Assembly (NCBI GenBank): GCA_017433725.1
Contig: JAFRGQ010000039.1
Span: forward strand, 1 to 44,435
From: Lachnospiraceae bacterium
GTDB taxonomy: Bacteria > Bacillota > Clostridia > Lachnospirales > Lachnospiraceae
Reading direction: 5' to 3'
DNA: 44,435 nt
Shown here: in pieces, positions 567 to 18,988 of the stretch
Position numbering within the stretch: position 1 is the first letter of the stretch
Layout: each line of letters starts with the position of its first letter
Program-made: the position numbers and the translations under genes
The notes under the pieces: generated by a model
What the model saw: only the letters and a program-made list of their open reading frames with translations
Told to the model about the DNA's origin: nothing
Database searches by the model: none

Positions 567-648
567 TCAGGATTTATTGCGGAAAATGAAGATTAGATTC
601 CGATCGAACAACACTCTGCCCCTGCACGGCCTGAGAGGAGGTTTCAAA

Positions 649-1137
649 ATGGATGATGAAAAAAAGGTTTATTCTTTCAGCAGCGAAGAGCTTCAGGAAG
701 CGGAGGAGCTGAATGCCCGCGCGAACACGAGAATGACGGAAGAATACAAACAGTTCCTCGAGGAACACTTCGGCGGTGAGGGCGAGCTCTACAATGAGCA
801 CCCCGATCGGAACAACTCCTGCGCTGATCAGGTATTCTCTGGTGAATACGTCGATCGTGGCGGCGTTAATGAGGAGCTCTGCGATGAGTGCGTCGATCGG
901 GGCGACGGTGATGTGGAGTTCTGCGATGAGTTCGTCGATCGGGGCGACGGTAATGAGGAGCCCTGCGATGAGCACACTGATGAGAGTGAATCCGGCGAAT
1001 ACTCCGAGGATGGTTTTACAAGATCCTTCAGCGACGAATATGTGAGCAACCGCTACGAGCCGCCTACATCCGGCAGTTTCGTGATGGACGGTGACTCGGA
1101 AGACGGATATAACAGCGTGGATTCTGACTTTGAGTGA
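649..1137 (+). CDS. Small highly acidic protein with three 14-residue Cys-containing repeats
   Basis: I do not recognise this protein. The start at 649 is chosen because a good AGAGGAGG Shine-Dalgarno lies a few bases upstream; an in-frame ATG at 577 has none. The product is 162 residues. The N-terminal 45 residues look like a charged helix (SSEELQEAEELNARANTRMTE). Residues about 67-108 are three tandem repeats of the type (Y/C/F)VDRGxxNEExCDE, encoded by exact 42-bp units, each with one Cys. The C-terminal third is acidic and rich in Ser, Tyr and Asp. There is no signal peptide or membrane segment. It is probably cytoplasmic. A promoter (458-486) and a hairpin (1228-1260) bracket it as a monocistronic unit. 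Confidence 0.6.
   Translation: MDDEKKVYSFSSEELQEAEELNARANTRMTEEYKQFLEEHFGGEGELYNEHPDRNNSCADQVFSGEYVDRGGVNEELCDECVDRGDGDVEFCDEFVDRGDGNEEPCDEHTDESESGEYSEDGFTRSFSDEYVSNRYEPPTSGSFVMDGDSEDGYNSVDSDFE
847..972 (+). repeat. Three tandem 42-bp coding repeats
   Basis: Units at 847-888, 889-930 and 931-972 each contain a gtcgatcg core near the start and end in tgcgatgag. The period is a multiple of three, so copy-number change keeps the frame. Units 2 and 3 are most alike (tcgtcgatcggggcgacgg versus gcgtcgatcggggcgacgg). Confidence 0.85.
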
Positions 1138-1601: not shown

Positions 1602-3965
1602 TTAGTTACCTTCCTTTCTTTTCTTTCCCCCCAAAACCAGCGGCCCCACAAACACATAAATCAGTATCAAAACCGCCCCGGCCGCCGTCAGCATACACCC
1701 CTGCGCAAGCCCCGGCACTGTGTAGAAGAAACAGATCCGGTTCTCACCCTCACTGACCGGGACCGCCATGAACCCGTTAATGTCGATAATCTCCACAGGT
1801 GCATCATTCACCGTCGCGCTCCACCCGGAATCGTTCGGAATCGAGAAGAAAGCGTATTTGTCTGCATCTGCATCAATTGTGCATTCATACGTGGATGTCG
1901 TCTCGGACACATCCCTCGCACACTCGTTCAAATGCGCACTGCTGATCGCGTTCAGGTACTCCTCCGTCGCATACCCATCCGTAAACGAATCGTAGGGGCG
2001 AAGGACCTGAGACACCTCATCCTCCATCTCATCCGGAATAATCAGCGTCTTTAGCATCAGGATCGCCCTGTCATCCGAATATGTCGTCGCAAAGTCTGAC
2101 GCAGTCATATATGTATCGTATGTAAAACCGATCGGCGGAATACTGTTATTCTCATAAACATAATAAGAGCGATATTTCCCATTCTCCGTCTGAATCGGAT
2201 CCTGCTCTTCCCTCGCTTCCGTCGTGATATCATATTTCGCCGAAATAAGATTGTAAAGTCCCAGCGGTGCTTCCGGACTCTTCACATCGCGCTCAAGCCC
2301 GAGCGATTCATAGAACCGGAAGATAGATCCGGATACCGTGCTGCAGAAATTCGCACTCGCCTTGTGATTATGGCACAGCGTTTCAATGTTATCCCTGCTG
2401 CTGTAGCGGTATTCCGGGCCCTCGTAATCGAGCCGTGCGCTGGTTACGATCTTATCGTGCACCTGATCCGCGTTCAGGCCGTGCGCCTGCTGGTACAGGT
2501 ATATCGTCAGAGTCGTCGTAAAAATCGCACATAAATAAATCGTAAAGAGCAGAACAGTCCTCTGATACTTCTTCAGATAACAGAGCGTGAACCAGGTCAT
2601 GAAAGTTCCCAATAGCGAGACGATACTCCAGATGATAAATATATCCATCCGATAGATCTTGCTCGGCTCACTGTCGTTCCATTTGACTAACACGAGGAAC
2701 AGAATAAATGCTATCGTTACCCCGCCCCAGATAACCGTCCCTGCGGTGATCTGCCTTTTCACGCTCCTGAAAGGATTCACTTTTCTTCTCGCCGTATTCT
2801 CCGCCTGCCATCTCTCCAGGATCATAACGGACGCGAGCACCATCATCAGAGCTGCCATGTAATACCATCGGCAGTAGACTCCGGCGAGCAGTGAAAACGA
2901 TGCGTTCAGGATCGGAACGACTGCGAAGACCAGACAGAATGTCAGCATTCTCGTCAGCCAGTGACGCGGTCTCATTCTCACGAATGCGATAACGAGCACC
3001 AGCCCGACAACCGGCAGATACGCGTTACAGGATGAAAAATTACTCTTAATGACTGCGCACTGGTGCGACATCACCTCACCGGGGAACACAAGTCCTTTCA
3101 GGATATACAGATACCGCTCCGCCGTGTACACAAGCGATGTCGAACCTGTATAATCCACATCGACTCTCGGATTCTGTATCGTGAATAAGAAGGCCGGCAG
3201 CAACAGGAAACATCCGAGCATACAGCCGAGAGCGCCTTCAATCAAAATCTGAGGCAGTCTTCTGATATGAGTCTTAAAATTGAACCCGGGGATGAGATAT
3301 CTGAGGACATAATAGGCCGCCAGGAAGATGATCTCTCCGACCAGGAAAAAGTAGTTCACAAGTGCGTTGATCGTGACCGCAAAAATGAACGGTCCACGCT
3401 TCTTTTCAAGCATAAGACTGTCGAACGTGAGCATGAGCAGCGGAAAAAGAGCAACGACATCGTGGAAATGATAGAACAGCAGATCCTCCGCCATATATCC
3501 GCAGAACGCGTAGAGCATTGAGCCGATCAGTGCATTCTTTTTGTCACGGGTATACCGCTGCAGATACGCGTACGAGGTAAGCCCGGCAACCGCATATTTC
3601 AGCATGTAGATCCATCCGACGACATACATGAACATGCGGGACGGGAACAGCAGGGAGAGCCAGAATGACGGATTGCCCAGAATATAGAATGTCATACCGC
3701 CGATAAAGTTCGACCCCAGATCGAGTGACCAGTCATAGATAATATTCCCGGATTTGATGGCATCGTTGGCAGCCATTGCAAATGTGATCTGCTGCGCATT
3801 GAAATCTCCTGCGAGTGAAAACAAGCCGCCCTGCGTGATGATCGTCCATGCAAAAGAAAAGAAACCGGCAATAAAATTCAGCACAAAAGCTGCCATGTAG
3901 TAGTTTTTCAGTTCCAAATAGAGTTTCTTATTATGTTTCAATATCTGCTCCTTTGCGGAAAGCAT
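1602..3965 (-). CDS. YfhO-family multipass membrane protein
   Basis: A 787-residue polytopic protein. Residues about 25-49 are the first membrane segment, followed by an extracytoplasmic loop with LAGDFNAQQITFAMAAND. This is the arrangement of YfhO/GT-C-like proteins, in which an acidic loop after the first helix is catalytic. A dozen or so membrane helices follow, then a soluble domain (about residues 500-740), and a last helix near residues 755-775 before a basic tail (GGKKRKEGN). In Bacillus and Listeria, YfhO works with undecaprenyl-phosphate sugar donors to glycosylate teichoic acids. It is the last gene of the glycan/lasso operon, 10 nt after the cyclase gene. Start: the first ATG has only a weak AGG upstream. 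A TTG at codon 9 preceded by AAGGAG is an alternative. Confidence 0.85.
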   Translation of the reverse strand: MLSAKEQILKHNKKLYLELKNYYMAAFVLNFIAGFFSFAWTIITQGGLFSLAGDFNAQQITFAMAANDAIKSGNIIYDWSLDLGSNFIGGMTFYILGNPSFWLSLLFPSRMFMYVVGWIYMLKYAVAGLTSYAYLQRYTRDKKNALIGSMLYAFCGYMAEDLLFYHFHDVVALFPLLMLTFDSLMLEKKRGPFIFAVTINALVNYFFLVGEIIFLAAYYVLRYLIPGFNFKTHIRRLPQILIEGALGCMLGCFLLLPAFLFTIQNPRVDVDYTGSTSLVYTAERYLYILKGLVFPGEVMSHQCAVIKSNFSSCNAYLPVVGLVLVIAFVRMRPRHWLTRMLTFCLVFAVVPILNASFSLLAGVYCRWYYMAALMMVLASVMILERWQAENTARRKVNPFRSVKRQITAGTVIWGGVTIAFILFLVLVKWNDSEPSKIYRMDIFIIWSIVSLLGTFMTWFTLCYLKKYQRTVLLFTIYLCAIFTTTLTIYLYQQAHGLNADQVHDKIVTSARLDYEGPEYRYSSRDNIETLCHNHKASANFCSTVSGSIFRFYESLGLERDVKSPEAPLGLYNLISAKYDITTEAREEQDPIQTENGKYRSYYVYENNSIPPIGFTYDTYMTASDFATTYSDDRAILMLKTLIIPDEMEDEVSQVLRPYDSFTDGYATEEYLNAISSAHLNECARDVSETTSTYECTIDADADKYAFFSIPNDSGWSATVNDAPVEIIDINGFMAVPVSEGENRICFFYTVPGLAQGCMLTAAGAVLILIYVFVGPLVLGGKKRKEGN

Positions 3966-3975
3966 CTTCCGTGTA

Positions 3976-5880
3976 TTACCTGCTCTCTTCCAGAAGAAGC
4001 TGCATCTTATATAGTGTTTTTATTATAGATCGCAGAGCATTTCTCTCCACAGCATTATCAGCGTGCAGCAGATGAGATTCCAGCTCATTGAAGTCAATAT
4101 AATCAGCAAACAGATCATGGTCGAGTCTTTCCAAAACAGTTCTGTCCACCCGGCTCTGTGTCACCTCGGTTACCTCATAATAGAAATCCATGCGTCCGGT
4201 GTCGAGTTTTTCAACATTGGATTCCCCGCTGAATTTCGTCAGATAATCGGGCACGATATCCTTCAGCGCCTTCTGCGGCAGGAGCCGCCTTGTGCCGTCT
4301 CTCATATAAAGGCGGCGCGGAACGCCCAGAGCATAGTCAATGAGCAAAGGATCGAGCATCGGAAACATGTAGACCATTCCCGCATCGGCGCCCGCAGATG
4401 CGGCAATCGACGTTCTTGACTCCATTCCTCCCGTGAGCAGGTTTTCTACAGGATCCCACCCGAAGTAGTTATACTTTTTCTCCCGTACTCTGTGTATCCG
4501 CTCTGCATACTCTTCATTTGTGATGTTGAACTTCCATCCGTTCACTGCACGGCCGTCCCATGGAGCATGACTGTCGCGGACTGCCCTAAGAGCCCTCCTT
4601 ATGAATCCGAGATATTTCTTAGGGTTCATGCCGGCTGCATGAAAAGCTTCATGTAAAAATGCAAGATATTCCCCTGATTCCAAAAGGCCCGCGGGACCGA
4701 ACCGCATCGTAACAGCTTCATCTCCGCCCCAGCCGGAAAATACAGTCCTTATTCCTTTCCCTGCCAGAGCCTTCATTGTGTACATGATAATGTCGGAGTC
4801 GAACTCGCAGATATCTTTTCTCTGTAAATTTTTGAGATATATCTCCTGATTCTCCGCATCGCCGCGCGGTCTGTAGACGCAGGGATTTCCCTTATCCGCA
4901 CAGAACTTCCGGATCACTTCCCGCTCGTCGCGGATCACCTCATCCCTCTGCTCACGAATCGGGTATTCCTCCTCGGAAGGCGACCAGGTAGCAAGCAGAG
5001 GCAGTTTCATACCGGATTCCTGTGCATACTCATCGAGCAGGGATACAATGATTCCCGAGTCAAGTCCGCCGGAGAATTCGGCACCGATCGCCTCTCCGCC
5101 TACAGCTTCCGCCCGATTCCTCACCGCATCCCGGATCAGTTTCGCATATATTTTCTCATACTGAACATCCCACTTGCCCTTAGGCACTTTCCGCTTGCCG
5201 GGCGTCCAGAATTTTTCAGATGTAATGATGTTCCCTTTCGACGTCATGCGGGTGACTGCACCGGCCTCGGATTTGCGGATATTTGCAAAAAGCGTCTCCG
5301 TCCTGCTCGCTACAATTCCCATCGTCAGATACTCATAGAGCCTCTCCTCATTGATCGAGATCTGATTCTCCGGAAGATGAAAGAAAGGCCTGTAATCCGT
5401 ACTAATCGTCATATAATGCTCTGATTGCATGATGTAGAGAGGCCTTATGCCCATGTGATCCCGTATGAGAGTGATCCGGCCATTTTCCTTATCTATGAGT
5501 ACTGCGGCAAAATCTCCGCTCAGACTACGAAGTCCGGGAAGCCCTTCCCTCTCATATGTTCTGACAAGCAGCTCTCCGTCACTCAGCATTTCCTGCCCCG
5601 GAAAGCTTTTCCTGTTATAGATCATCGCATCACAGACAGCAATGTGCAAATCGGTGTCGACAACACACTCTGTCAGGGGGACACCCACGTGAGCGTTATT
5701 CTGGATACTTCCCATGACGATTGTAGAGTCCCCTCTCTCGAAACTCGTCTCCCCCTCACAAGGCCCCGAGGCTCCTCCGAGACCGTATGGCATAAGTCCG
5801 TCGTGCAGGATCCTACTCTGAGACAGGATTGTTTGAAAATCCGAATGTGTGTCATGAATCATCGCATAGATAGCACTCAT
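3976..5880 (-). CDS. Asparagine synthetase-like lasso peptide macrolactam synthetase (C protein)
   Basis: A 634-residue protein of the AsnB fold. The N-terminal Ntn-hydrolase-like domain starts MSAIYAMIHD and lacks the Cys2 nucleophile of true glutamine-dependent asparagine synthetases, as usual in lasso C proteins. The synthetase domain has the ATP-pyrophosphatase loop SGGLDS at residues 270-275 and FSGWGGDEA further on. Lasso C enzymes adenylate an Asp/Glu side chain of the core peptide and close the N-terminal macrolactam ring. The start at 5880 overlaps the VanZ stop by ATGA and has GGAGG upstream; a longer frame to 5952 lies inside vanZ and is rejected. Its place in an operon with B1, B2, kinase and exporter genes supports the lasso role over ordinary asparagine synthesis. 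Confidence 0.85.
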   Translation of the reverse strand: MSAIYAMIHDTHSDFQTILSQSRILHDGLMPYGLGGASGPCEGETSFERGDSTIVMGSIQNNAHVGVPLTECVVDTDLHIAVCDAMIYNRKSFPGQEMLSDGELLVRTYEREGLPGLRSLSGDFAAVLIDKENGRITLIRDHMGIRPLYIMQSEHYMTISTDYRPFFHLPENQISINEERLYEYLTMGIVASRTETLFANIRKSEAGAVTRMTSKGNIITSEKFWTPGKRKVPKGKWDVQYEKIYAKLIRDAVRNRAEAVGGEAIGAEFSGGLDSGIIVSLLDEYAQESGMKLPLLATWSPSEEEYPIREQRDEVIRDEREVIRKFCADKGNPCVYRPRGDAENQEIYLKNLQRKDICEFDSDIIMYTMKALAGKGIRTVFSGWGGDEAVTMRFGPAGLLESGEYLAFLHEAFHAAGMNPKKYLGFIRRALRAVRDSHAPWDGRAVNGWKFNITNEEYAERIHRVREKKYNYFGWDPVENLLTGGMESRTSIAASAGADAGMVYMFPMLDPLLIDYALGVPRRLYMRDGTRRLLPQKALKDIVPDYLTKFSGESNVEKLDTGRMDFYYEVTEVTQSRVDRTVLERLDHDLFADYIDFNELESHLLHADNAVERNALRSIIKTLYKMQLLLEESR

Positions 5881-6686
5881 ATAGTTCCTCCGCGAATCTT
5901 TTCCGAATGCCTGCAGATGTAATAATTCCTCACATACAGGGTCAGGAAACACTGCAGCAGAAATCCTGTCAGATAATAAAGTATCGGGGCAGAAAAACGA
6001 TAGGCAGTGAAATACTGAACCAGATACTTCGAAAGTACACTCAGCATATTGGCCAGCATGATGACAGCCGCTGCCTTCACGCCTCTGCTGCCGCGCAGAT
6101 CACCGTACATGTCGAACCGTCTGAAAATGAAATAAGATATGACAGCATGGGCAGGTATGTAGAGAACATATGTCTTGGTAAGCACAGCGGGTACCCTGCC
6201 GAAAGAAAAGCTTCCTGACTGTCTGAATTCCAAAATGACCATTGCCGCACCATACACGATTGTGACCGCCATGGCATCAAAGATCTCAAGTGGCCCATAG
6301 AAACAGAGGATGCCTATCGCTCCGCCCAGGGTATTATTAAAGACGTCGTCAAATTCACACATTCCTCTGCCGGTAATAAGCTGAACGAGTTCAATCGTTG
6401 TCGAATAGCATGCAATGAGCAGAACGATTTTCCACTTTTTTGTGTCCCTGAATGCGGCGGCTCCGAAATATCCCATCGGGATGCAGAGCAGAATATTGAT
6501 AATCAGGAACTGAAATGTGGCCAGTCCTCCGGCAAGGGAATACCGAAGCTCCCAGAAAGGCATCAGATTCCATCTTCTGGGACCGACTGTTCTTGTAAAA
6601 ATCGTATATGTTGCGAAAAACAGCAGATAGAGAACAAAAAGCACTCTTGCCTGCCATTTTCCGATCTCTTTACGTGAATCTTTCAT
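5877..6686 (-). CDS. VanZ-family membrane protein in the lasso/glycan operon
   Basis: A 269-residue membrane protein with about six or seven predicted helices. VanZ hallmarks include RRWNLMPFWELRYSL after the first helix, NILLCIPMGYFG, and ELVQLITGRGMCEFDDVFNNTLGGAIG. The last segment (E-x-x-Q, then D-D-x-x-N-N-x-x-G) is the strongest match. The C-terminal half has extra helices beyond the minimal VanZ core. It sits between the nucleotidyltransferase gene (32-nt gap, no strong RBS) and the cyclase gene (4-nt overlap), so it is probably translated with them. VanZ genes recur in Firmicutes cell-envelope and RiPP clusters without a defined activity. Confidence 0.85.
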   Translation of the reverse strand: MKDSRKEIGKWQARVLFVLYLLFFATYTIFTRTVGPRRWNLMPFWELRYSLAGGLATFQFLIINILLCIPMGYFGAAAFRDTKKWKIVLLIACYSTTIELVQLITGRGMCEFDDVFNNTLGGAIGILCFYGPLEIFDAMAVTIVYGAAMVILEFRQSGSFSFGRVPAVLTKTYVLYIPAHAVISYFIFRRFDMYGDLRGSRGVKAAAVIMLANMLSVLSKYLVQYFTAYRFSAPILYYLTGFLLQCFLTLYVRNYYICRHSEKIRGGTI

Positions 6687-6718
6687 GTATTACAAAATCT
6701 TTCATTTGTCCGGAAAAG

Positions 6719-7864
6719 CTATTTCTCCGGAAAAACCTTTCCTTTAAGAACCCTGTACAGCTTGTAAGGACCTCTCACTACATAATAGAGGAAAAAGAAG
6801 CGGTCACTGAAATGGAACGTCTCAAAATCTTTTTCCGATGGATCAATTCTTCGTGTTTTCTCTTTATCGGTAAGCAGGCCTCTGCGTTCGAGCTCACTGT
6901 CAAGGAACGAGCGATAAGCAATGAAAACATCATCTTTCTGTCCGTTCGATTTTGTGAGGACACCGACCATCTCCTCAGTAAGACGGCTCACAGATGCTGC
7001 TTCCTCATCATCCGCAGACACCAGGTACACCATCGCATAAGATGCCCGAAGCGCCCAGTCAAGTCCCATCTTCGCGGCCAGCTCCATGGCTGCCTTCCTG
7101 TCTACACTTGCGTGTCTTGCCAGGGTATCAAAATCCGTCAGCCACTTCATCCACATATAGCCATGATGGACGCCGTGATAAGCAAGGTAGACGAGCCACG
7201 CTTCCGGAGTATAGGTCGGCAGCTCCTGACCGAAGAATGAGATCGTAGAGTCCGCATTATCACATGTCAGAATCTCTGCGGCCTTGATGTCAGCCACTCT
7301 CCAGTGCAGTTCCAGCTTAATTCCATCCTTCGACTCAAAGTCATAGTCGTGGAATTTGCTCTCGTAGACCTCCATCTGCTTTGCGGTCGCAACATACTCC
7401 TTGTTGGACGTGTAGCCCTGCTCCGCGAGAATCTCCCTCGCCCTGTCAAAATCTTCGCGGCGAATCAGCAGATCAATATCCGTCGCATATCGGTACGTCG
7501 GATCATCGTAAAGCATTTTCGACAGAAGGACGCCTTTCAGAGGCACCGTTCTGACGCCTCTGTCCGTGAAGACCCGATAAAGCCTGACAAGCTCGCCCGT
7601 CTGCTTCATAGAATCAAAGCGGTTCCTGTTCGCTGCCACATACATGGCCTTAACGGCTTCGTTTTCACCTGCCTCCGGAAAATGATCCTTAAGATTTTTT
7701 GCAAAAAGACTGTAGACCTGATGGACATAAGCGATTCTGACAGCCTCATCCAGATCAAGGCCGGATTTAAAAATTTCCTGCGCCTTCTTCAGATACTTCT
7801 TCGGCATCGGAAGAATCGAACATAAATAGACAAATCTCTGTTCTCTCGAAATATCCATACTCAT
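6719..7864 (-). CDS. Nucleotidyltransferase-fold protein (lasso-associated type)
   Basis: A 381-residue protein of the family annotated 'nucleotidyltransferase family protein' (NTP_transf_5 type). The central motif LKGVLLSKMLYDD followed by RYATDIDLLI (residues about 109-134) supplies the D-x-D metal-binding pair of the Pol-beta nucleotidyltransferase fold. A helical C-terminal half follows. Members are recurrent partners of lasso peptide clusters in Firmicutes and proteobacteria; their substrate is not established. The ATG overlaps the B2 stop codon by 4 nt, showing translational coupling. What it transfers (nucleotide, or another group onto peptide or glycan) cannot be read from the sequence. 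Confidence 0.8.
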   Translation of the reverse strand: MSMDISREQRFVYLCSILPMPKKYLKKAQEIFKSGLDLDEAVRIAYVHQVYSLFAKNLKDHFPEAGENEAVKAMYVAANRNRFDSMKQTGELVRLYRVFTDRGVRTVPLKGVLLSKMLYDDPTYRYATDIDLLIRREDFDRAREILAEQGYTSNKEYVATAKQMEVYESKFHDYDFESKDGIKLELHWRVADIKAAEILTCDNADSTISFFGQELPTYTPEAWLVYLAYHGVHHGYMWMKWLTDFDTLARHASVDRKAAMELAAKMGLDWALRASYAMVYLVSADDEEAASVSRLTEEMVGVLTKSNGQKDDVFIAYRSFLDSELERRGLLTDKEKTRRIDPSEKDFETFHFSDRFFFLYYVVRGPYKLYRVLKGKVFPEK

Positions 7865-8292
7865 GCAAATGTAGCGGTGACCGTGAACCGCTCTCTCCCC
7901 TCCTCACCTGTAACAATGATGTCTCCGACCCTCGTCCATGCGTGAGCCTTCATACCGCCGTCTTCCTTTTTCGCGACGCCCATATAGACTGTCGACGGGA
8001 TATCCCCAAGGATTCTTTTTGCGGTGAACGCGCATACGAGGCATTCATTTGAAAAATGCAGTTTCGGAACGACCGCTCTGATCGCTCTTCGTATCTGCAA
8101 AATGTATTCCCTCTGCCCGTCCGGGACAGGTTCTTCGGACGTCACCCTCCCCGCACTGCCGAGCCTGCCCGCTATCGCGGAGAATTTCCGAAATCGAATG
8201 AGCAGCTTATAATACACTGCAAGCAGAAGAACCCGCACGCATAATTTTTTCAGTGCGGGCGGGTAAATTATAAACTTCAACATACTCTTCAT
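7861..8292 (-). CDS. Lasso peptide B2 leader peptidase (transglutaminase-like)
   Basis: A 143-residue protein matching the B2 half of split lasso B proteins. The papain/transglutaminase-like catalytic triad is visible as Cys84 in NECLVCAFTAKRILG, His118 in KAHAWTRVGD, and Asp124. The N-terminal 50 residues are basic and hydrophobic (LKKLCVRVLLLAVYYKLLIRF), as in other B2 proteins. B2 removes the leader peptide after the leader is delivered by the B1 recognition protein. B1 is encoded 3 nt upstream. The stop overlaps the next start (ATGA). Length and residues are normal, so nothing suggests a decayed gene. Confidence 0.88.
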   Translation of the reverse strand: MKSMLKFIIYPPALKKLCVRVLLLAVYYKLLIRFRKFSAIAGRLGSAGRVTSEEPVPDGQREYILQIRRAIRAVVPKLHFSNECLVCAFTAKRILGDIPSTVYMGVAKKEDGGMKAHAWTRVGDIIVTGEEGRERFTVTATFA

Positions 8293-8295
8293 ATC

Positions 8296-8565
8296 TTATT
8301 CCATACTGAACAGGCCATGTTCAAGTCCTGTTTTCAAGAACGCTTCTACCTGCGCCTTGCAGGTCGCACGGTCGACATCATACTTAGCGGTGAGAATATC
8401 AACCAGCTCGTCCAGTGTCTTCGGTGACTCCAACAGGTTCCAGATCGCGCCGCCTGTCCTGCCGAGATTGTAATATTTTCCCGATACAATGTCCATCATA
8501 ACGACCTCGCCGTCCATATCCGCAGCGATAATGTCAGGTTTTCTGGTATACTTTTTTTCATTCAT
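8296..8565 (-). CDS. PqqD-type RiPP recognition element (lasso B1)
   Basis: An 89-residue stand-alone PqqD-like protein. The pattern EVVMMDIVSGKYYNLGRTGGAIWNLLE, followed by a helical TLDELVDILTAKYDVD region, is the winged-helix RRE that binds RiPP leader peptides. The start at 8565 is chosen because GGAGG lies about 9 nt upstream and the ORF then overlaps the end of the kinase gene by 8 nt; a longer frame to 8616 lies within the kinase. It is encoded between the kinase and B2 genes, the usual K-B1-B2 order of Firmicutes lasso clusters. Confidence 0.88.
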   Translation of the reverse strand: MNEKKYTRKPDIIAADMDGEVVMMDIVSGKYYNLGRTGGAIWNLLESPKTLDELVDILTAKYDVDRATCKAQVEAFLKTGLEHGLFSME

Positions 8566-9472
8566 TGATAAATTCCTCCGCTGCCGCAAGCATTTCCGCT
8601 TCGGATGTGTCTTCATAGCGGAACATGTGGGCTATCTTTAATCGTTTTGCTATATCAGCGCAGCTCTGAAAATGCCTCTGTCTGCTCTCATGGTCGACCA
8701 ACATGTATTTTCTGTATGTGTGCAGCTGCATGAGGACTGCTCGCTCCAGGCCCGTGACTTCATCGATCAACGGTCTGCCGTCCCTTATTCCTTCCTTAGG
8801 GATCAGCTGAATAATACCGCACAGGACCGTTTCCTCGTTCAGGAAAGCGTCGTCAACATTCATGGCGAACTTTGTCCGGTCATTTTCATCGTATATCCTG
8901 TGGTCAGTCTTATCCTCTACGCCGCCGCGCTCGACCGCATCCTCCCAAAGTTTCTGTTGCGGGAAGGACGGCTCGGCGACAACCACACCGTTCCGGATCG
9001 ATACCGGCGTCACATCATCCGTGACCAGCCGATATCCCTGACGAATCGCCTCAGCAGCGATGGAGGACTTTCCCGCCCCGGAAACACCGGTAAAGAGAAC
9101 CGCTCTGCCGTCTTTCTGTACACAGCTTCCGTGCATGGGTATCTGCTTCCTCTGATGCATGATTGCGCCGAAAGCCAGGCCGGTAATGTATGCCTGCAGA
9201 AGTCCTTCTTCCTCTTTTCCCGGAGCAGGCTGCACTATGATATCTCTGCCGTGTCCCACGTAGATTTCAGCAATCTCGAGATTGCTCCACATCTCGTCTT
9301 TCCCGAACCTTGCGTCGAGATACGTCTGCAGCGGATCCTGTATCATATCTGCAGAGACTTCCCCATACCGGATGCGTACATCACACCGGTCATCGGAAAA
9401 CTCCGCCGGCAACATCTGTGCAATTTCAAACTCTGATTCAATGTTGAAGCCAAAAGCTCTGTATCGGTACAT
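8558..9472 (-). CDS. HPr kinase-like lasso peptide serine kinase
   Basis: A 304-residue protein. Residues 112-160 hold the HprK-type nucleotide-binding core: MHGS (His114), Walker A GVSGAGKSS at 129-137, and TDDVTPV at 151-157. There is no HprK N-terminal DRTGG-like domain; instead residues 1-100 form a lasso-kinase-type N-terminus. In paeninodin-type clusters such a kinase phosphorylates the C-terminal Ser of the precursor peptide. The gene starts 4 nt after the exporter stop and its stop overlaps B1. A simple metabolic HPr kinase is unlikely given the context and the missing N-terminal domain. Confidence 0.82.
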   Translation of the reverse strand: MYRYRAFGFNIESEFEIAQMLPAEFSDDRCDVRIRYGEVSADMIQDPLQTYLDARFGKDEMWSNLEIAEIYVGHGRDIIVQPAPGKEEEGLLQAYITGLAFGAIMHQRKQIPMHGSCVQKDGRAVLFTGVSGAGKSSIAAEAIRQGYRLVTDDVTPVSIRNGVVVAEPSFPQQKLWEDAVERGGVEDKTDHRIYDENDRTKFAMNVDDAFLNEETVLCGIIQLIPKEGIRDGRPLIDEVTGLERAVLMQLHTYRKYMLVDHESRQRHFQSCADIAKRLKIAHMFRYEDTSEAEMLAAAEEFINE

Positions 9473-9475
9473 ACA

Positions 9476-11266
9476 TTATCCGTCCTTCATTTTAGTCAGG
9501 TAACTCTCCGGATTCTTCAGCAATTCTCCGGCACTCCCCTGTTCCTTAAGCTGTCCGTTTTCAATGACGAGTATATCATCTGCCGACTGAATTGTCGACA
9601 CACGATGCGCAACGAGAATAATCGTCATCTCGCTCTTCAGCCTTTGAAGCAGCCCGGCGATCAGCTTCTCATTTCCGAAATCAAGTGCCGACGTGGCCTC
9701 GTCAAGAATCAGCAGTCTCGGCGTGCCTGCAATCGCACGGGCGAGTACAATTCTCTGCACCTCGCCTCCCGAGAACATGACGCCGTCGTCTCCCATGCGG
9801 AGGTCGAGCGGTGACTGCCCTTCGGTACACTTCCTCTCAAGAAAGCCCATGGCTTCCGTCCTTACAAGTGCTTCCACGATCTCACCGTCCGAAATCCCCG
9901 GGTGGAAACGCGCTATATTTTCCCGGACCGATGCGGTCAGAATCATAGGGCTCTGCGGAACGTACGCAATCTCGCCGTCTTCAGCCTGAATGAAAATATT
10001 CCCGCTGCCGGGCGTAAGAAATCCCAGAATAAGGTCGACGACCGTACTTTTTCCTGCTCCGGACGGACCGGTAAAAGCAGTGATCGTATGTTTCCCGATC
10101 TTGAAGCTCACATCATGAAGAGAGTCCGCAGCTGCATCCTTATATCGGAAGCTGACGTGGTCAAATACCACCGCCAAACCTCCCGTATCTACCTTCCCGT
10201 CATAACTTCCGTAAGTAATGTCGTCCGTTCCTGCTTTCCGGTCCGCAGCCGTACTTCTTTCTCCGGAATCCTTCTTTCTAACGTCCTGCATAACTTTGTA
10301 GGCCGGCAGCGTCTCTTTGATGCCTTGTATGTATTCCTGCGTTGCAGGCAGGAGCGGCCATATCCGGTAAAAAACGTACAGTACAACGATCATGCTCGCA
10401 GTCTCGATGTGAAGCCAGTACTCCGCGCAGAAGAAAATGACAGCGATGAGAATCGCCTCCCCTATCGTGGAGATCATGCGCGGCGCCGATACATTTCCCG
10501 TGGCCTCGATCATCAGATCCCGGAATGTTTCCGTTATGTCTCTGAAACGGCGGGACTCCTCTTCGGCAATGCCGTAGCTTCTGATTTCCTTAAATCCGGA
10601 GAGCTGCGTCTGCACCTCATCCGTGAAAGCTTCATACTGTCTGCTCAGTCTCTTTCCGAGTGTTTCCGATCTCTTTGTGAAACGTCTGAAACACAGGAAG
10701 AATACGCCTCCGACGACAATAACAAATCCCGAAAGCGAAGCAGACAGGGAAAAGGCAATGACAAGATCGATGAGAGCGGTCACGACATTTGTCATCATCG
10801 ACATAAAATAATTGATCGTCGTCGTTAATCGAGGAATCTGTGTAATCAGAGCGTCCGTGTGCGCGGACTGATTATCGGATGAATATCGCTCCCAGCTGCT
10901 GCTCATCAGCTCATCATAGTACTCTTCTCTCATGTCGGCCGTAAATCCCGAAGCAAGCCTCATGGACCGGACTTTGACCATCCGAACGGAAACAGCCTGA
11001 AGTGTCATGATAACGAAAAAGCAGAAAAGAAGAACGAAAAGTCTCAGGCCGAACGACAGACTGAGAAGAAAGGACAGGAACCGGGAGAGGCCGAACGGCA
11101 GATCCGCTGCCTCCCCCACTTCCATAATATTCATGATCGGAACAAGCATAAGAATTGTAACGCCCTGAAGAAAGGATGCGATGACCATGAAAATGATCGT
11201 CGTGATGAACAGTCTTCCGTCCTTCTTCATAAGGTCGCCGAGGAGTTCCCTCAGTCCATTTGCCAT
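9476..11266 (-). CDS. ABC exporter, fused membrane and ATPase domains (lasso D-type)
   Basis: A 596-residue half-transporter. The membrane domain, with about six helices, spans residues 15-320. The ATPase domain has Walker A GPSGAGKST at 400-408, Q-loop VPQSP near 436-440, signature FSGGE at 498-502, Walker B LLILDEATSALD around 518-529, and the H-loop AHRVST. All catalytic residues are intact. There is no N-terminal C39 peptidase domain, so leader removal must be done elsewhere, which fits B2. The ATG follows the licD stop directly (TAAATG), with AAAGGA upstream. In this context it probably exports the mature peptide; export of a lipid-linked glycan is the alternative. Confidence 0.85.
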   Translation of the reverse strand: MANGLRELLGDLMKKDGRLFITTIIFMVIASFLQGVTILMLVPIMNIMEVGEAADLPFGLSRFLSFLLSLSFGLRLFVLLFCFFVIMTLQAVSVRMVKVRSMRLASGFTADMREEYYDELMSSSWERYSSDNQSAHTDALITQIPRLTTTINYFMSMMTNVVTALIDLVIAFSLSASLSGFVIVVGGVFFLCFRRFTKRSETLGKRLSRQYEAFTDEVQTQLSGFKEIRSYGIAEEESRRFRDITETFRDLMIEATGNVSAPRMISTIGEAILIAVIFFCAEYWLHIETASMIVVLYVFYRIWPLLPATQEYIQGIKETLPAYKVMQDVRKKDSGERSTAADRKAGTDDITYGSYDGKVDTGGLAVVFDHVSFRYKDAAADSLHDVSFKIGKHTITAFTGPSGAGKSTVVDLILGFLTPGSGNIFIQAEDGEIAYVPQSPMILTASVRENIARFHPGISDGEIVEALVRTEAMGFLERKCTEGQSPLDLRMGDDGVMFSGGEVQRIVLARAIAGTPRLLILDEATSALDFGNEKLIAGLLQRLKSEMTIILVAHRVSTIQSADDILVIENGQLKEQGSAGELLKNPESYLTKMKDG

Positions 11267-12139
11267 TTATGTTTCCTTTCCATCTTCCGGTGACAGGAAT
11301 TCGATTTTTCGAATATTGTGCTTATCCCTGTTCCCCGCCGGCGGCGGCGTCATGTACTCTCCGTAGAACCGGCTGAGGAATGCATCGTAGTTCTCGGGTC
11401 CCGGAAGTTCAACATCCTCAAAAGGATACAGTGCAAGTTTACTGCCCCACACGTCCTTCGGTACCATCTCCCGGTGGGCGTAGGCGCCGAATACATTGGC
11501 AGCCGTCGAGCTGCCTGCCCAGCGATACTTTTTGAGTTCTTTATCGATGTTGTCGAGGATCTGCTTGCAGTCACGTCCTCGGCCGATCGGAACACGTTTT
11601 GCAAATCCGATGATCAGTCGCTGATACAGCGGGCGGCCCGGTCTGTTCAGATTGACCATGGTATCCATCAGAGAGAGATGGTACCTGAGACGTTTCCACA
11701 TGATCCATGTGTAGCGCAGATTCCTTAATATGTAATTGTTCGGAGAGCCGTCAAGCGGGAAAATGTCGATCCATGCAGCTTCAACGATCTCCTCACCGCC
11801 GGATGCGTTGTAGACCAGCACCCGGTTGTCAACGATCCGGCTAAAATATCTCTTATAGTCGTCTTTAAGCTTGTAATTCAGATATTCGAAGTTCTCCGGC
11901 AGATAGGTTCCATCTTTCAGGAGTTCGAACAGCCGGTCATAATCTTCTCTGGGCATACCGATATCGACATCATCGTCCCAGGGAATAAAACCCTTGTGCC
12001 TTATAGCGCCGAGCATAGTTCCGCCGATCATGAAATACCGCAGATGTTCCTTCTCACAGATCTTCATGAACAGCTTAATGATGTTGAGCTCAGCCAGCTG
12101 CAGCTTTCTCAGAGTTTTCTGTACTTCATCGTTATACAT
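11267..12139 (-). CDS. LicD-family phosphotransferase
   Basis: A 290-residue protein. The family signature MIGGTMLGAIRHKGFIPWDD (residues 37-56), continuing DVDIGMPREDYDRL, is very clear and supplies the D-D-D metal-binding cluster of the nucleotidyltransferase-like fold. LicD proteins transfer phosphocholine or related phospho-alditols from CDP-linked donors onto teichoic acids or capsule sugars. The start at 12139 has a strong GGGAGGA and is preferred over upstream in-frame starts up to 12205, which would overlap the Wzy-like gene. It is followed without a gap by the exporter gene, tying envelope glycan decoration to the lasso block. Confidence 0.88.
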   Translation of the reverse strand: MYNDEVQKTLRKLQLAELNIIKLFMKICEKEHLRYFMIGGTMLGAIRHKGFIPWDDDVDIGMPREDYDRLFELLKDGTYLPENFEYLNYKLKDDYKRYFSRIVDNRVLVYNASGGEEIVEAAWIDIFPLDGSPNNYILRNLRYTWIMWKRLRYHLSLMDTMVNLNRPGRPLYQRLIIGFAKRVPIGRGRDCKQILDNIDKELKKYRWAGSSTAANVFGAYAHREMVPKDVWGSKLALYPFEDVELPGPENYDAFLSRFYGEYMTPPPAGNRDKHNIRKIEFLSPEDGKET

Positions 12140-12168
12140 AAATCCTCCCGCGGTACATACATCCGCCA

Positions 12169-13437
12169 TCAGTATTTTTTCTGTATCATATTCAGCTGTC
12201 CCCATACATCATGACTGTGTGAAAGGCCCTTCGGGGCAGGTATATCTTTTTGGATCTGTTCTGCTTCGGCAGCAGGCTCTTCAACCTTCTCGGCACCCTT
12301 TTTCCTGTAACCCGGAGCATACGGGATTACAGAGAATATGAGCAGAGGGAACGGATCATACCAGAACTCAAGAAAATGATGGTCTACGCAGGAAGAAAGT
12401 CCGATCATGAAAATGATGATCGCCAGATGATGCTGTCCTCTCCGAATAGCCGTAAATGTGATCAGTACGAACATGAGCAGTACTAAGAACATCAGAACAT
12501 AGCCGTACTCCAGAAGAGCCTGGAGGTATCCGCAGTCTACAAAGTTGTATCCGGCCCACGAACTGTAGTTCAGCGCGCCATGACCCTGCTGATATATGTG
12601 GCGTCCGAACGGATGAATGCCGGTATACCAGACATTGTAATATCCGTACATCAGGCGCTTGCTCAGGATCCTGTCAAGATACTTGAAGAACGGCCCTTTC
12701 TTATAAGACATCGTCACGAAGTAGGACAGGAAAAAGAAGAAGGGTACACACACGATCAGCATCCTCTCAATCCATTTTCGCTTAAAGAACCTCGTCTTCG
12801 CGTTCAAGTAAAACAGGATTCCCACTATGACGATCAGAGCTGCATCCAGTCGGGCATCGCAGAAAACCGTTAACAGGGCGGAAATGACACAAAAAATCCC
12901 AAGCATGGCGAGATTATAGCGTTTACCGACCAGAGCACAAAATGCAAGGCTTGTATAGAAAAGTCTGGCACCAAAATCCGTGGGATAGATGAATCCTACT
13001 GAATTTCGGATAACATCACTGTCCGTTCTGGTAAAGGTACGATTCTCTATAACCCCTCCTGCCAGCGCAATCAGCGTTACAGCGATGAGCAGCATACTCA
13101 TAAAGAAATACAGGTTGACAATTCGATTCGCCCTGAAACCGCGTGCTCCGACGATAAGCATGAACATGTCAAGCTGATATATGTAACCTGTGACGTGATA
13201 ACACATAAGGATGGGCAGAGCAATAACCACATAGACCGCAACTCTTTTGAGGGTGAATGTCTCGGCCAGCATCATCTTCACCAGGATAAATCCGTAACAT
13301 GTGAATCGAATGGCGTTTCTCAGGGTATGATTCGACAGCGGAAGGATATCCGCGAACATCGTCGTACTGAGGAACATGAGCGTAAAGTACGCCCCTGCTC
13401 CCAGGTAGTACATAAATTCCGACGGTGTAATCATCAT
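12169..13437 (-). CDS. Wzy/O-antigen ligase-like polytopic membrane protein
   Basis: About 422 residues with some ten membrane helices. A large extracytoplasmic loop lies near the C-terminal half (GIHPFGRHIYQQGHGALNYSS), followed by GYNFVDCGYLQALLEYGYVLM, a pattern typical of Wzy/WaaL-like polymerases that join lipid-linked oligosaccharides. A soluble tail rich in Glu and Ala follows (KVEEPAAEAEQIQKDIPAPK). The start is uncertain: the open frame reaches a TTG at 13479 that overlaps the upstream gene, while the ATG ATG pair at 13437/13434 lies 17 nt after the upstream stop. I use 13437. The context with glycosyltransferases and LicD supports surface glycan polymerisation. Confidence 0.7.
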   Translation of the reverse strand: MMITPSEFMYYLGAGAYFTLMFLSTTMFADILPLSNHTLRNAIRFTCYGFILVKMMLAETFTLKRVAVYVVIALPILMCYHVTGYIYQLDMFMLIVGARGFRANRIVNLYFFMSMLLIAVTLIALAGGVIENRTFTRTDSDVIRNSVGFIYPTDFGARLFYTSLAFCALVGKRYNLAMLGIFCVISALLTVFCDARLDAALIVIVGILFYLNAKTRFFKRKWIERMLIVCVPFFFFLSYFVTMSYKKGPFFKYLDRILSKRLMYGYYNVWYTGIHPFGRHIYQQGHGALNYSSWAGYNFVDCGYLQALLEYGYVLMFLVLLMFVLITFTAIRRGQHHLAIIIFMIGLSSCVDHHFLEFWYDPFPLLIFSVIPYAPGYRKKGAEKVEEPAAEAEQIQKDIPAPKGLSHSHDVWGQLNMIQKKY

Positions 13438-13453
13438 CGAATATTTGCTATTG

Positions 13454-14563
13454 TCATACAGGTAAGATTTCGCTCTCAATCCCGCTCAAAACCTTTCGTG
13501 TGTAATCTCCCCGCCGAAGTCTCTTTCCTACTTTTTCGGCGTTTTGCGCAAGTATATGGTACTCTTCGTAAGTCATTTCTTCAAGTATCTTTGGAATAAT
13601 CGAAATCGATTCGACGGCGATCCCGCACTTTTCCTTTAGAATATATCCCGCTATTGCCGCCTCTTTCCAGACGATGACCGGCATTCCGGCAGAAAGATAC
13701 AGGGACGTTTTATGAGGATTATTGTACCTTAAGTACTCTCCGAAAACGCCTTCGCATGTGTCGACGGAAGCCCCGTCCCAGACCAGTCCGAAACTCCCGT
13801 CGATCCTGTCCGCAATCTCATCGGCGAGGAACGAACCGTGATAGTATACCCCGAAGCTTTCCGGATCTGTATCAGCTCCCGGAAGGAAAGCCTTCCCGGA
13901 AAACTGAATTCCGTACAGATTCCATCGCATATTTCCCGGAAGCTGATACGCATAACCCGACTTGTCCGGTCTCAGGTTTCCGGCAATGGCAACGCCTCGA
14001 CCGAAATTCCTGCTCTTTGTCTCTCCGCAGAGATAATCGAACAGACCGAGACTCCGCATTCTTCCCGACGGTATGCCGCACAGTTCGGCGACAGCTTCCT
14101 TCATAGCCTTGTTGTGGACCACAATGCGGTCAAAATGACCAAGGCAAAGTTGTTCCTCAAAATGCTTTCTCATGCGGTTCTTAAGGCTTTTGTCCTTCCT
14201 TTTGGCTCCGCGCAGGATTTCCACATCGTGCAGAATGGCGACCAGGCTGACCCCTCTCCCCTTTAAGCGGCTGAGCTGCCTTGACAACATCAGACTGTGA
14301 TTCACAGGCGGAAACTGGATGAGGAGCAGATCGCCTTTTGTAAGATGAGCCGTCTTCTTTTCCCATTCACGCAAAGCTTCGCCGTGTTCTCCCAGCTGTC
14401 CGACGATATTCCGGTCCTCAAATCTCGCCGTATCGAATACAATGTCAACAGGAGTATAACCAAGCTGCTCTGTGCAGATTCTGTCAATATCGACTCTGGC
14501 TTTTGCTCCGGCCGTTCGCTTTTCATTTTCTCTGAATGCGGTTTCCCTGGCTATATATTTCAT
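13454..14563 (-). CDS. Gtf3/galactofuranosyltransferase-like glycosyltransferase
   Basis: A 369-residue cytosolic protein with a GT-B-like layout. The N-terminal half contains KGDLLLIQFPPVNHSLMLSR and VSLVAILHDVEILRG. The C-terminal half contains GRGVAIAGNLRPDKSGY, then YLRYNNPHKTSLYLSAGMPVIVWKEAAIAGYI. This resembles sugar transferases of the Gtf3/galactofuranosyl type that extend surface glycans. The ATG at 14563 has GGGAGA 3 nt upstream of a TTT spacer. It lies just downstream of the tandem repeat block that separates it from the GT4 gene. The donor and acceptor sugars cannot be deduced. Confidence 0.75.
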   Translation of the reverse strand: MKYIARETAFRENEKRTAGAKARVDIDRICTEQLGYTPVDIVFDTARFEDRNIVGQLGEHGEALREWEKKTAHLTKGDLLLIQFPPVNHSLMLSRQLSRLKGRGVSLVAILHDVEILRGAKRKDKSLKNRMRKHFEEQLCLGHFDRIVVHNKAMKEAVAELCGIPSGRMRSLGLFDYLCGETKSRNFGRGVAIAGNLRPDKSGYAYQLPGNMRWNLYGIQFSGKAFLPGADTDPESFGVYYHGSFLADEIADRIDGSFGLVWDGASVDTCEGVFGEYLRYNNPHKTSLYLSAGMPVIVWKEAAIAGYILKEKCGIAVESISIIPKILEEMTYEEYHILAQNAEKVGKRLRRGDYTRKVLSGIESEILPV

Positions 14564-14590: not shown

Positions 14591-14802
14591 CAGGCGATAC
14601 TGCTTAATTCGCCTGACCTGCTGACCTGCTGCGGCTTCTCAGGACATCAGGATAGACCCGTTATATCAGGCGATACTGCTTTATCTGCCTGACCTGCTGC
14701 GGCTTCTCAGGACATCCGGATAGACCGCGTATATCAGGCGATACTGCTTTATCTGCCTGACCTGCTGCGGCTTCTCAGGACATCCAGATAGACCCGGTAC
14801 AC
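14591..14802 (-). repeat. Three tandem copies of the glycosyltransferase gene's 3' end
   Basis: Units at 14591-14666 (76 bp, with an extra 8-bp ctgacctg), 14667-14734 (68 bp) and about 14735-14802. On the plus strand each begins caggcgatactgctt. Unit 3 contains the last codons and stop of the GT4 gene (…YLDVLRSRSRSGR*). Units 1 and 2 repeat the same coding end, stop codon included, downstream of the gene. Each unit can also form a small caggc/gcctg hairpin. Confidence 0.85.
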
Positions 14803-15876
14803 TTTACCCGCCATCACTTCAGATGTGAATCGCCTGAGCGCTTCCGTATGTGCCCTGTCTACCATCGGTTTCATATCATCCGTTCCGCGTACAGCCACCC
14901 CGTGCAGGATCTCCGTCCATCCGTTCAGATCATCGGCGTCGATACCGATACACAGATCCTTCATTTCAGAATAACCGCCGGTTTTGGAACGTATCACCGG
15001 AACATCCATAAAAAATCCTTCGAGAGCCGACATCATAAAGCTCTCTGTCTGACTCGGACCGAGAAGCAGATCCGAACATCCGAGAATTATTCTCGGATCG
15101 GTCCAACCCGTGAATCTGAACTGCTGTAACACGCCAAGCTCTCTCAACTGTGATACCAGTGGATCATAACCTGGCACATTCCTCATGCCGGAACACAGAA
15201 TCACGAATTTGGATCTCTCGTCGTCCGGAAGGTTTGCCAGTGCTTTTCCGATCATAACATGATTCTTTCTCGGGTCGATCCTTCCGTGGATCGCAGCGAC
15301 GATCTTTCCGTCCGGTATGAGAAAATTCGTGTATGACCAGCGTTTTTCATCTTCACTCAGTTTCCGGAGCTGCGCCGGGTCTACTCCGTTCTCTATCACT
15401 GTAATCTTTTCTTCCGGTATCTTAAGCTCGTGAACCATGAACTTTTTTGTGTCGTCTGAAACGGCAATTGCGGCGTCTCCGGTCGAATTCAGCATGCGAT
15501 GCATTAAATTGGTCTGTACCGACATGGAATGGCATGTATAGATATACGGCTGCTTAGGACCTGCCATTCTGACTGCAAATGCATTGTCCCTGCCATGGCA
15601 GTGAATGATATCAAATGCATGGTTCGAAAGAACTTTCCGGATCTCAGCAGTGTTCATAGCTGTCTGCAGCGGGTTATGGTCACGGAACTCGGTGAAAAAA
15701 AGGTTTTCCTCAGGAATAATACCTGCCATCACCCCCCCTGTCGGATCTGTGGACAGAAGAGATACATCAAGACCTTTTTTTATAAATTCTTTTGCCAACG
15801 CGGTGACATGCGCGGCTTCACCTCCCGCCCTTACCTTTGCGGAGACGAGAAGAACTCTCATTTTTCTTTTTTTCAT
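14749..15876 (-). CDS. GT4-family glycosyltransferase
   Basis: A 375-residue GT-B enzyme. The N-terminus MRVLLVSAKVRAGGEAAHVTALAKEF has the glycine-rich acceptor loop. KIVAAIHGRIDPRKNHVMIGKAL opens the C-terminal donor domain, and GPSQTESFMMSALEG carries the conserved E-x7-E region. The family uses nucleotide sugars to glycosylate lipid-linked glycans. An ATG at 15876 is used; a TTG at 15894 and an ATG at 15861 are also in frame, and none has a strong RBS. It is the first gene of the glycan/lasso operon. Its 5' end abuts a dispersed repeat (15882-15932), and its last 16 codons are repeated twice downstream. Confidence 0.82.
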   Translation of the reverse strand: MKKRKMRVLLVSAKVRAGGEAAHVTALAKEFIKKGLDVSLLSTDPTGGVMAGIIPEENLFFTEFRDHNPLQTAMNTAEIRKVLSNHAFDIIHCHGRDNAFAVRMAGPKQPYIYTCHSMSVQTNLMHRMLNSTGDAAIAVSDDTKKFMVHELKIPEEKITVIENGVDPAQLRKLSEDEKRWSYTNFLIPDGKIVAAIHGRIDPRKNHVMIGKALANLPDDERSKFVILCSGMRNVPGYDPLVSQLRELGVLQQFRFTGWTDPRIILGCSDLLLGPSQTESFMMSALEGFFMDVPVIRSKTGGYSEMKDLCIGIDADDLNGWTEILHGVAVRGTDDMKPMVDRAHTEALRRFTSEVMAGKVYRVYLDVLRSRSRSGR

Positions 15877-15881
15877 ATGAT

Positions 15882-15932
15882 TATTCCCACTCAAGCAGGC
15901 TCGATGTCAGAATGATACCTTTGGCAATGTAA
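15882..15932 (-). repeat. Dispersed ~50-nt repeat, copy upstream of the GT4 gene
   Basis: Read on the minus strand it contains tatcattctgaca, then gagcctgct, then ggaataat. It is close to 90% identical by eye to 27318-27371 on the plus strand. It sits between a candidate -10 box and the GT4 start, so it would be in the operon's 5' leader. Confidence 0.7.
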
Positions 15933-15934
15933 TC

Positions 15935-15962
15935 ATATTAACATAAAGGAAGACTGCTGTAA
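15935..15962 (-). promoter_or_regulatory. Candidate promoter of the glycan/lasso operon
   Basis: On the minus strand TTACAG (15962-15957), a 16-nt spacer, and TAATAT (15940-15935). It is the only plausible pair I see between the LCP gene end and the first gene of the operon. The match to consensus is fair. Confidence 0.4.
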
Positions 15963-16050
15963 CACAGAATTCAAATCTTGCCGGCGCGAAACGAATACCC
16001 GTTCCGGCCCACAGCATGAATTGCCTGTATGCAGCAGTCCCGTATATTCA

Positions 16051-18909: not shown

Positions 18910-18988
18910 ATGCACTCTCCCTCATATTACGGTTAACATAGACGAAATCAGTATAGCATAAAACAAAATCTATGAAAAGTAGTAACCT

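Follow-up and report, generated by a model that had tools for sequence, protein, structure and literature searches.

A proposed split-locus, kinase-tailored lasso peptide system with enzymes built into a surface-glycopolymer operon of a Lachnospiraceae bacterium

We propose that the window (the whole 44,435-nucleotide stretch of DNA that was analysed) carries the enzymes of a split-locus, kinase-tailored lasso peptide system. The enzymes are built into a surface-glycopolymer operon, and their substrates would be two precursors encoded on another contig (C64) of the same genome (G000). We put the probability of this reading at roughly 0.84. What the sequence shows directly is the gene set and how well it is conserved, as well as the precursors with their motifs and the co-occurrence; characterised relatives suggest the individual steps. 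B1 would bind the WxxPxI leader, the kinase would add phosphate to the precursor's C-terminal Ser and the nucleotidyltransferase may modify the Ser phosphate. B2 would cut after TA, C is predicted to join Gly1 to Glu9, and the ABC protein is the predicted exporter of the product.

Maturation enzymes in a conserved 13-gene block

The enzymes lie in a block of 13 genes that includes LCP, glycosyltransferase, LicD and YfhO genes. Synteny is kept in four relatives (L026-L029), across which cyclase identity is 45-83%; VanZ is missing from the block in one of the four (L029, no match). The genes are, from first to last:

16084..18915, minus: LCP (LytR-CpsA-Psr) protein (PF03816, 68.9 bits; orthologues in L026-L029)
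14749..15894, minus: glycosyltransferase (PF13439 and PF00534)
13454..14563, minus: probable glycosyltransferase (PF13439, 26.3 bits, slightly under the cut-off of 28.5)
12169..13479, minus: hydrophobic protein (no Pfam match; orthologues in L026-L029)
11267..12205, minus: LicD-family protein (PF04991, 143.9 bits)
9476..11266, minus: ABC exporter, lasso D-type (PF00005 and PF00664)
8558..9472, minus: HprK-type kinase (PF07475, 38.7 bits, cut-off 33.3)
8296..8616, minus: B1/PqqD, predicted leader-binding RRE (NF033536, 99.1 bits, cut-off 80)
7861..8292, minus: B2 leader peptidase (NF033537, 68.2 bits, cut-off 33)
6719..7864, minus: PsmN-like nucleotidyltransferase, NTP_transf_5 (PF14907, 160.8 bits)
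5877..6686, minus: VanZ-like membrane protein, between nucleotidyltransferase and cyclase (PF04892, 72.4 bits)
3976..5880 (called 3976-5952), minus: AsnB-type protein, predicted macrolactam cyclase C (PF00733; tree)
1602..3965, minus: YfhO membrane protein (PF09586, 221.1 bits; orthologues in L026-L029)

The original prediction described exporter, kinase, B1, B2, nucleotidyltransferase and cyclase as consecutive genes. All of them are present in one run, with intact open reading frames on the minus strand, but the VanZ-like gene (5877-6686) had been left out of that account. The hydrophobic protein (12169..13479) might be a polymerase or ligase, a guess from its position and appearance.

The key residues are in place, as had been claimed. 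Cys84 and His117 of B2 are invariant in all six orthologue sequences, His114, Lys135, Asp152 and Asp153 of the kinase likewise (6/6), and the SGGLDSG and GGDE motifs of the cyclase are invariant in the five orthologues compared. Loss of a third catalytic residue in B2 was considered and dropped; paeninodin-type B2s are alike at that position. The conserved start of B1 is an internal Met at 8565. The cyclase of the relatives starts at the position of ATG 5880 (MSAIYAM), and the GTG start of the called gene is therefore probably too early. The best solved relative of B1 is PbaB1 (9x90; E 9.8e-25); this nearest protein takes W-type leaders, and by our reading of the comparison 9 of the 12 residues of its leader-binding pocket are kept in the window.

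The cyclase exceeds the PF00733 cut-off, scores 124.6 bits against NF033535 (the NCBIfam lasso cyclase family, cut-off 525) and has no N-terminal Cys. In the tree it is not of the paeninodin type and stands in a separate clade, with GGDE retained. Its relatives adjoin a lasso-type precursor at L079 and L081, which were picked by B1, and at L159, L227 and L231, which were reached via precursors; such neighbours occur in other genera and once in a genus member.

The search for a precursor within the window

A strict lasso pattern gave no match in the six frames of the window. The leader scan of the same six frames required [YWF]xxPx[LVIFAM] close to a start that has a purine-rich site; two ORFs remained, the in-frame end of VanZ and one inside the kinase gene, and both lack a lasso core. 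With the core pattern, one ORF of the window was left, antisense to the nucleotidyltransferase gene. Looser matches in cis proved to be antisense or overlapping ORFs, or to fall at the ends of YfhO, LicD or the hydrophobic protein, and were discarded. The claim that no visible precursor gene lies around the operon was confirmed in the six-frame scans of the whole window.

This negative is informative for such leaders because the same scan found leader-type ORFs in all five loci that had been picked by B1 only and have a cyclase BLAST match (L079, L081, L082, L084, L089). Five further B1-picked loci (L078, L080, L083, L085, L086) gave neither a W-type leader ORF with a core nor a cyclase match. 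At L024, a Bacteroidota locus, the cyclase was matched but the scan gave no leader ORF. Loci L090-L094 were chosen by their precursor and serve as a check of the scan only, and L227, L231 and L159, reached through the precursor search, are weaker controls.

The gap ORFs of the block in the window have neither a leader motif nor lasso features. Among gap ORFs of at least 20 aa, recurrence is confined to the window and its near relative L026, plus a single 13-residue match that links L027 with L028; the suggested comparison of small ORFs in relatives gave no gap ORF common to divergent ones. In the gaps of L028 and L029 there are three loose leader matches, each either of low complexity or 20-22 aa long, and none has a lasso core. 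Outside the block, the stretch 433-1601 holds a short acidic plus-strand ORF, retained in L026, in which no lasso features were seen.

Candidate precursors in trans

The candidate precursors form a stand-alone two-gene operon on contig C64, outside the window:

C64 2006-1887, minus: candidate precursor 1 (leader profile A7)
C64 1752-1603, minus: candidate precursor 2 (leader profile A7)

Profile A7 was built from 14 leaders, all from other genera, and was searched in 42 genus genomes. It matched in five (G035, G011, G004, G000 and G030) at E 3.5e-6 to 7.6e-5, the next genome following at 0.278; a weak match on C243 of G011 (E 0.0056) was rejected, since its frame overlaps a longer ORF and looks like chance. 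The C64 peptides carry WxxPxI...ETA|GG. Thr-2, Gly1 and Glu9 occur in all 12 genus precursors, and Glu9 is found even though the A7 model stops at core residue 3. Ser, the expected kinase target, stands at the C-terminal end in 11 of the 12. The tandem pair lies downstream of an EamA gene in G000, G030, G035 and G011. The PadeA-family HMM (NF033524) gave two sub-threshold matches in the own genome (best 14.3 bits, cut-off 27), of which that at C64 1944-1997 (11.6 bits, E 0.959) is a C64 precursor, recognised later. At L159 (4067) the core, read by eye and from alignment A8, is GGTKGDHFE.

Precursors are found in 5 of the 42 genus genomes, all within the seven that have a strong window-type cyclase (Fisher p 2.5e-5 with kinship ignored, a value that overstates the evidence because the genomes are related). 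Contig positions place enzymes and precursors at least 30, at least 34 and at least 126 kb apart in three relatives. In G000 the proven separation is only about 3 kb, since both loci lie near contig starts. The draft genomes G018 and G009 (89% and 64% complete) have the enzymes; the A7 search found no precursor in them, and the flanking EamA gene is also missing. G004 has precursors and cyclases, and B1 and B2 were not found in it.

Three options had been left by the original prediction: a precursor elsewhere in the genome, one hidden inside another gene, or another substrate. The first is favoured because leader, cleavage site and core of the C64 peptides fit B1, B2, C and the kinase, and because their distribution follows that of the cyclase; as far as sequence can tell, a recognisable pair is indeed present in trans, the finding that the original prediction had named as one that would remove the puzzle. 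A precursor overlooked in cis, with the C64 peptides belonging elsewhere, is very unlikely. The two gaps of the block do hold small ORFs (one of 41 aa at 15933-16058, minus strand, partly retained in L026, and one of 102 aa in L027), but none in the window has the leader motif, none recurs across divergent relatives, the loose matches of L028 and L029 have no lasso core, and the C64 precursors already fit. It is likewise highly improbable that the enzymes act on a surface polymer or other molecule without any peptide: the rest of the block is a polymer locus and a precursor was not found in cis, but the B1 pocket and a B2 family score over the cut-off both imply a peptide that carries a leader.

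That the C64 peptides are real lasso precursors served by another, unassembled enzyme set, the window enzymes having a further substrate, is quite improbable. The own genome is 76.8% complete, and a second match to Transglut_core3 is seen in G030, along with two PqqD matches that are weaker. Against this, G035 (97% complete) has one B2, one RRE (the window B1) and one strong window-type cyclase together with a precursor pair, and G011 also has one RRE (again the window B1) and one B2. A PqqD protein at 115.6 kb of C64 was set aside as a partner: its neighbour is a radical SAM protein, and neither G035 nor G011 gave a match to it. A decaying cluster that has lost its precursor would explain the empty search in cis, but is exceedingly improbable: the enzymes are all open, the block is kept in four relatives, and the loss-of-function changes in B2 or C proposed as a sign of decay are contradicted by the invariant residues given above.

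Relation to known systems

The split-locus reading places the system near the paeninodin/pseudomycoidin type (pade, psm, pba), with which it has exporter, HprK-type kinase, B1, B2 and nucleotidyltransferase in common, as well as the W-type leader and the C-terminal Ser. The exporter is 28-30% identical (E about 1e-85 to 1e-90) to those of paeninodin-type loci L090, L091, L092 and L094. The order kinase-B1-B2-nucleotidyltransferase is the same in L090, L092 and L094; in L091, B1 is not among the genes listed. Paeninodin-type loci have their precursor just beside C, whereas here the precursors are unlinked. In the window the exporter precedes the kinase and the cyclase, of its own clade, comes after VanZ; core residue 9 is Glu rather than Asp, and the precursors stay under the cut-off of NF033524, the paeninodin precursor family. 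A capsule-locus setting like that of the window block is reported for paeninodin-type loci of Bacilli in an excerpt of PMC13381572.

The same excerpt (PMC13381572) describes linear polyphosphorylated peptides (LPP), which resemble the block in RRE, HprK-type kinase, NTP transferase, exporter and capsule setting, and have a SipW-like peptidase, no cyclase and YxxPxVLxHQ-type leaders. The window system differs: it has B2 and a cyclase, and its candidate precursors are of the W type. When the block was scanned with Pfam, a B2 and an AsnB protein were found and no signal peptidase family. Prochlorosins are RiPP precursors encoded in trans. Lanthipeptide proteases can also be unclustered, with parts of one RiPP pathway lying apart (an excerpt of PMC8960859). 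Both resemble the window system in that pathway parts are encoded apart, but their enzymes are unrelated and their products are not lasso peptides.

The role of phosphorylated lasso peptides in Bacillota is called unknown in the excerpt of PMC13381572, and the fixed link to a surface-polymer operon makes it testable by gene deletion. A speculative and rather doubtful extension makes surface appendages of the lasso peptides. Kinase and nucleotidyltransferase would provide the C-terminal Ser with a sugar-phosphate handle, and LicD, LCP and YfhO, encoded in the same operon, would tie the knotted peptides to a cell-surface glycopolymer; the enzymes would then be part of the polymer locus, and precursors could be freely exchanged at their separate site.

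Clustering of the precursor gene with lasso enzymes is usual but chemically not required. Since lasso mining usually seeks precursors beside the enzymes, it would rate a conserved system of this split kind as incomplete and discard it. A genome-wide leader-profile search followed by co-occurrence offers a route to recover such orphans, and in this case it yields two specific candidate peptides; one candidate precursor has a CxCxCxC tail.

An enzyme block without a precursor

The window is the entire contig C36 (44,435 bases) of a draft genome, G000, of 2.66 Mb in 98 contigs that is 76.8% complete. The lasso-maturation genes named in the original prediction were all found, all open and in the same orientation. 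They belong to a 13-gene run on the minus strand (the block).

Genes of the block, in transcription order
1-5: LCP, glycosyltransferase, probable glycosyltransferase, hydrophobic protein without family match, LicD
6-13: ABC exporter, HprK-type kinase, B1 (leader-binding RRE), B2 (leader peptidase), NTP_transf_5, VanZ-like, AsnB-type cyclase, YfhO

Two starts were corrected, most likely to ATG 5880 (cyclase) and 8565 (B1), as in relatives. At 577-1137 (+) the window holds a short acidic ORF with repeats mid-sequence; its counterpart in L026, the G030 locus (17365-17799, minus), differs in the repeat part.

The prediction had seen no precursor gene near these enzymes, and this holds: six-frame scans of the window gave no convincing ORF with leader and core. 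The same leader scan recovered clear precursors in 5/5 family loci (L079, L081, L082, L084, L089) chosen by B1 alone, with a BLAST match to the cyclase. PF13471 matches occur in 16 of 42 genus genomes and exceed the cut-off in six, G000 and the five used for block comparison. The block extends from LCP to YfhO in G030, G035, G011 and G018 (L026 to L029, respectively), with LCP extending to the stretch edge in L027 and L028 and VanZ missing from L029; in G009 (L025) it is interrupted by the end of a short contig. Compared with the window, cyclase identity is 45-83% (four relatives) and B2 identity 56-95% (five). Gap ORFs recur in window-L026 pairs and otherwise in a single match of 13 residues, between L027 and L028; no small ORF in the block gaps of the window or relatives resembles a lasso precursor. 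Since the block is retained in relatives, with catalytic residues invariant among those compared, and no gap ORF is precursor-like, the absence of the precursor is an inherited state. This argues against decay, which the prediction had linked to loss-of-function changes of B2 or C in sibling strains.

Candidate precursors in trans

One of the prediction's three options, a precursor elsewhere in the genome, is favoured by candidate tandem genes on contig C64, found with a genome-wide leader profile. This profile, A7, aligns 14 leaders whose lasso loci come from other genera and families; searched against the 42 genus genomes, it matched best in G035 (3.5e-6), G011 (4.1e-6), G004 (2.4e-5), G000 (4.9e-5) and G030 (7.6e-5); the next-best genome reached only 0.278. 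A tandem pair of small genes accounts for the matches in each of G000, G030, G035 and G011.

Candidate precursor genes of G000 (locus L155, contig C64), matched by A7
2006-1887, minus strand, first precursor
1752-1603, minus strand, second precursor

The encoded peptides read MERWTAPEIHELNVQETA before and GGQSTMPIECECGCHCKGGAS after the predicted cut and, from an internal Met, MERWEIPAIQEMNVEETA before and GGHYEDVIENECAHVPYSS after it. Counterparts of both genes lie in L156, L157 and L158. A TTGACT-17-TATACT site and a terminator of 11 pairs mark the G000 operon (shuffled sequences contain such sites too, averaging 2.3 promoters and 0.4 terminators). Inspection by eye added ribosome-binding sites and showed the same promoter again in L156-L158. 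An EamA gene lies upstream in 4/4 loci. EamA is present in 33/42 genomes, and among 30 EamA loci compared, some on incomplete stretches, precursors occur at only these four. The first precursor's core (L155 1887-2006 and its three counterparts) has a CxCxCxC tail, kept in 4/4 genomes; this tail might serve in metal binding or disulfide formation.

Judged from the positions and lengths of contigs, and assuming correct assembly, at least 126 kb separates block and precursors in G030; the corresponding minimum is 34 kb in G035, 30 kb in G011 and about 3 kb in G000, where both lie near contig starts.

Independent evidence for the precursors

The leader model stops at core residue 3, with Glu9 and the C-terminus outside it. 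Thr-2, Gly1, Glu at core position 9 and the leader W of WxxP occur in 12/12 genus precursors (8 orthologous), and a C-terminal Ser in 11; the core at L159:4067 was read by eye and alignment. A profile of these 12 (A8) recovered its own members at E 4e-23 to 2e-14, the next genus match being 0.08. Against 397 family genomes (E up to 0.001) it found seven further places in six genomes: four adjoin a window-like cyclase (G534 and G553 by tree; G791 and G718 by BLAST and motif), another two have a different lasso-type cyclase alongside or close by (G813, G504), and the last (G534:C29) has no cyclase within the 3 kb examined.

The window cyclase (E up to 1e-8) matches 8/42 genus genomes, seven strongly; the weak G016 match (26% over part) was left out of the count. 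Precursors occur in five of the 42, all inside these seven (Fisher 2.5e-5, kinship not corrected). Against B2 presence the value is 6e-4, with G004 the mismatch: in this draft genome B1 and B2 were looked for and neither was found. G004 has four precursors on three contigs (L159, L160, L161, L225) and two window-type cyclases, one adjoining precursors. G018 and G009 have neither precursors nor an EamA match. G035 and G011 each yielded a single RRE, the block's B1, and a single B2. Synonymous to nonsynonymous codon changes were 1:1, 11:10, 9:10, 10:11, 8:11 and 3:3 for six pairs of the first precursor, and 8:2 and 5:4 for two equal-length pairs of the second; against a neutral quarter, 11/21 gives p 0.006 and 8/10 p 0.0004, for these two pairs only.

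Enzymes, likely mechanism and other systems

The best solved relative of B1 is PbaB1 (9x90, E 9.8e-25), which serves as RRE in a paeninodin-type system with a preference for WxxP leaders. By our reading 9/12 pocket residues are kept (Y39, L41, I48, L65, Y69, V71, Q79, F83, L92), and I44, E75 and L87 are changed. The B2 active-site surroundings also resemble those of paeninodin-type B2s. The cyclase retains SGGLDS and GGDE and has no N-terminal Cys; a 25-row tree places the seven genus cyclases together with L079a and L081b in a single supported clade, separate from paeninodin-type cyclases and from AsnB. A window-type cyclase adjoins a lasso-type precursor in L079 and L081 (chosen by B1) and in L159, L227 and L231 (found via precursors).

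According to the available text of PMC9266682, HprK-type kinases act on lasso precursors by phosphorylating their C-terminal Ser via a His-Lys-Asp-Asp set, and PsmN, an NTP-transferase relative, is linked to hexose on the Ser phosphate. L079 2421-4493 (+) encodes a 690-aa protein that combines an HprK-type kinase domain with an NTP_transf_5 domain, suggesting that they act one after the other. A Ser tailored by phosphate and sugar might anchor the peptide on the polymer that the neighbouring genes make.

Neither the enzymes nor the capsule setting is new; what looks new is the conserved precursor split, the CxCxCxC-tailed core and the present cyclase clade. Lasso and LPP clusters with precursors lie inside capsule loci of Bacilli, where the accessible part of the source calls their roles unknown (PMC13381572), and 11 complete and 23 incomplete lasso clusters are given for rumen bacteria in the part available of PMC7533575. 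Searches of open-licence papers, PMC7280977 and PMC4289311 among them, brought up no recognised report of lasso precursors encoded apart from the enzymes.

C64 also carries, at 115587-115847 (L162 10579-11751, 12177-13325), a 390-aa protein whose C-terminal domain is PqqD. It adjoins genes for a radical SAM protein and for an ABC transporter and probably belongs to a RiPP-like system of its own; there is a hint of it in G030 (C3:206508) and no match in G035 or G011. L078 (G779:C49:18000-37999) has B1 (56% identity to the window B1), B2, VanZ and NTP_transf_5 alongside genes for LCP and sortase; its 20 kb contain neither a cyclase match nor a leader-type precursor, and it may be another split set or a reduced one. 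A second Transglut_core3 match above cut-off lies at G030:C59:5858-6079 (L030), with neighbours unlike those of the window block.
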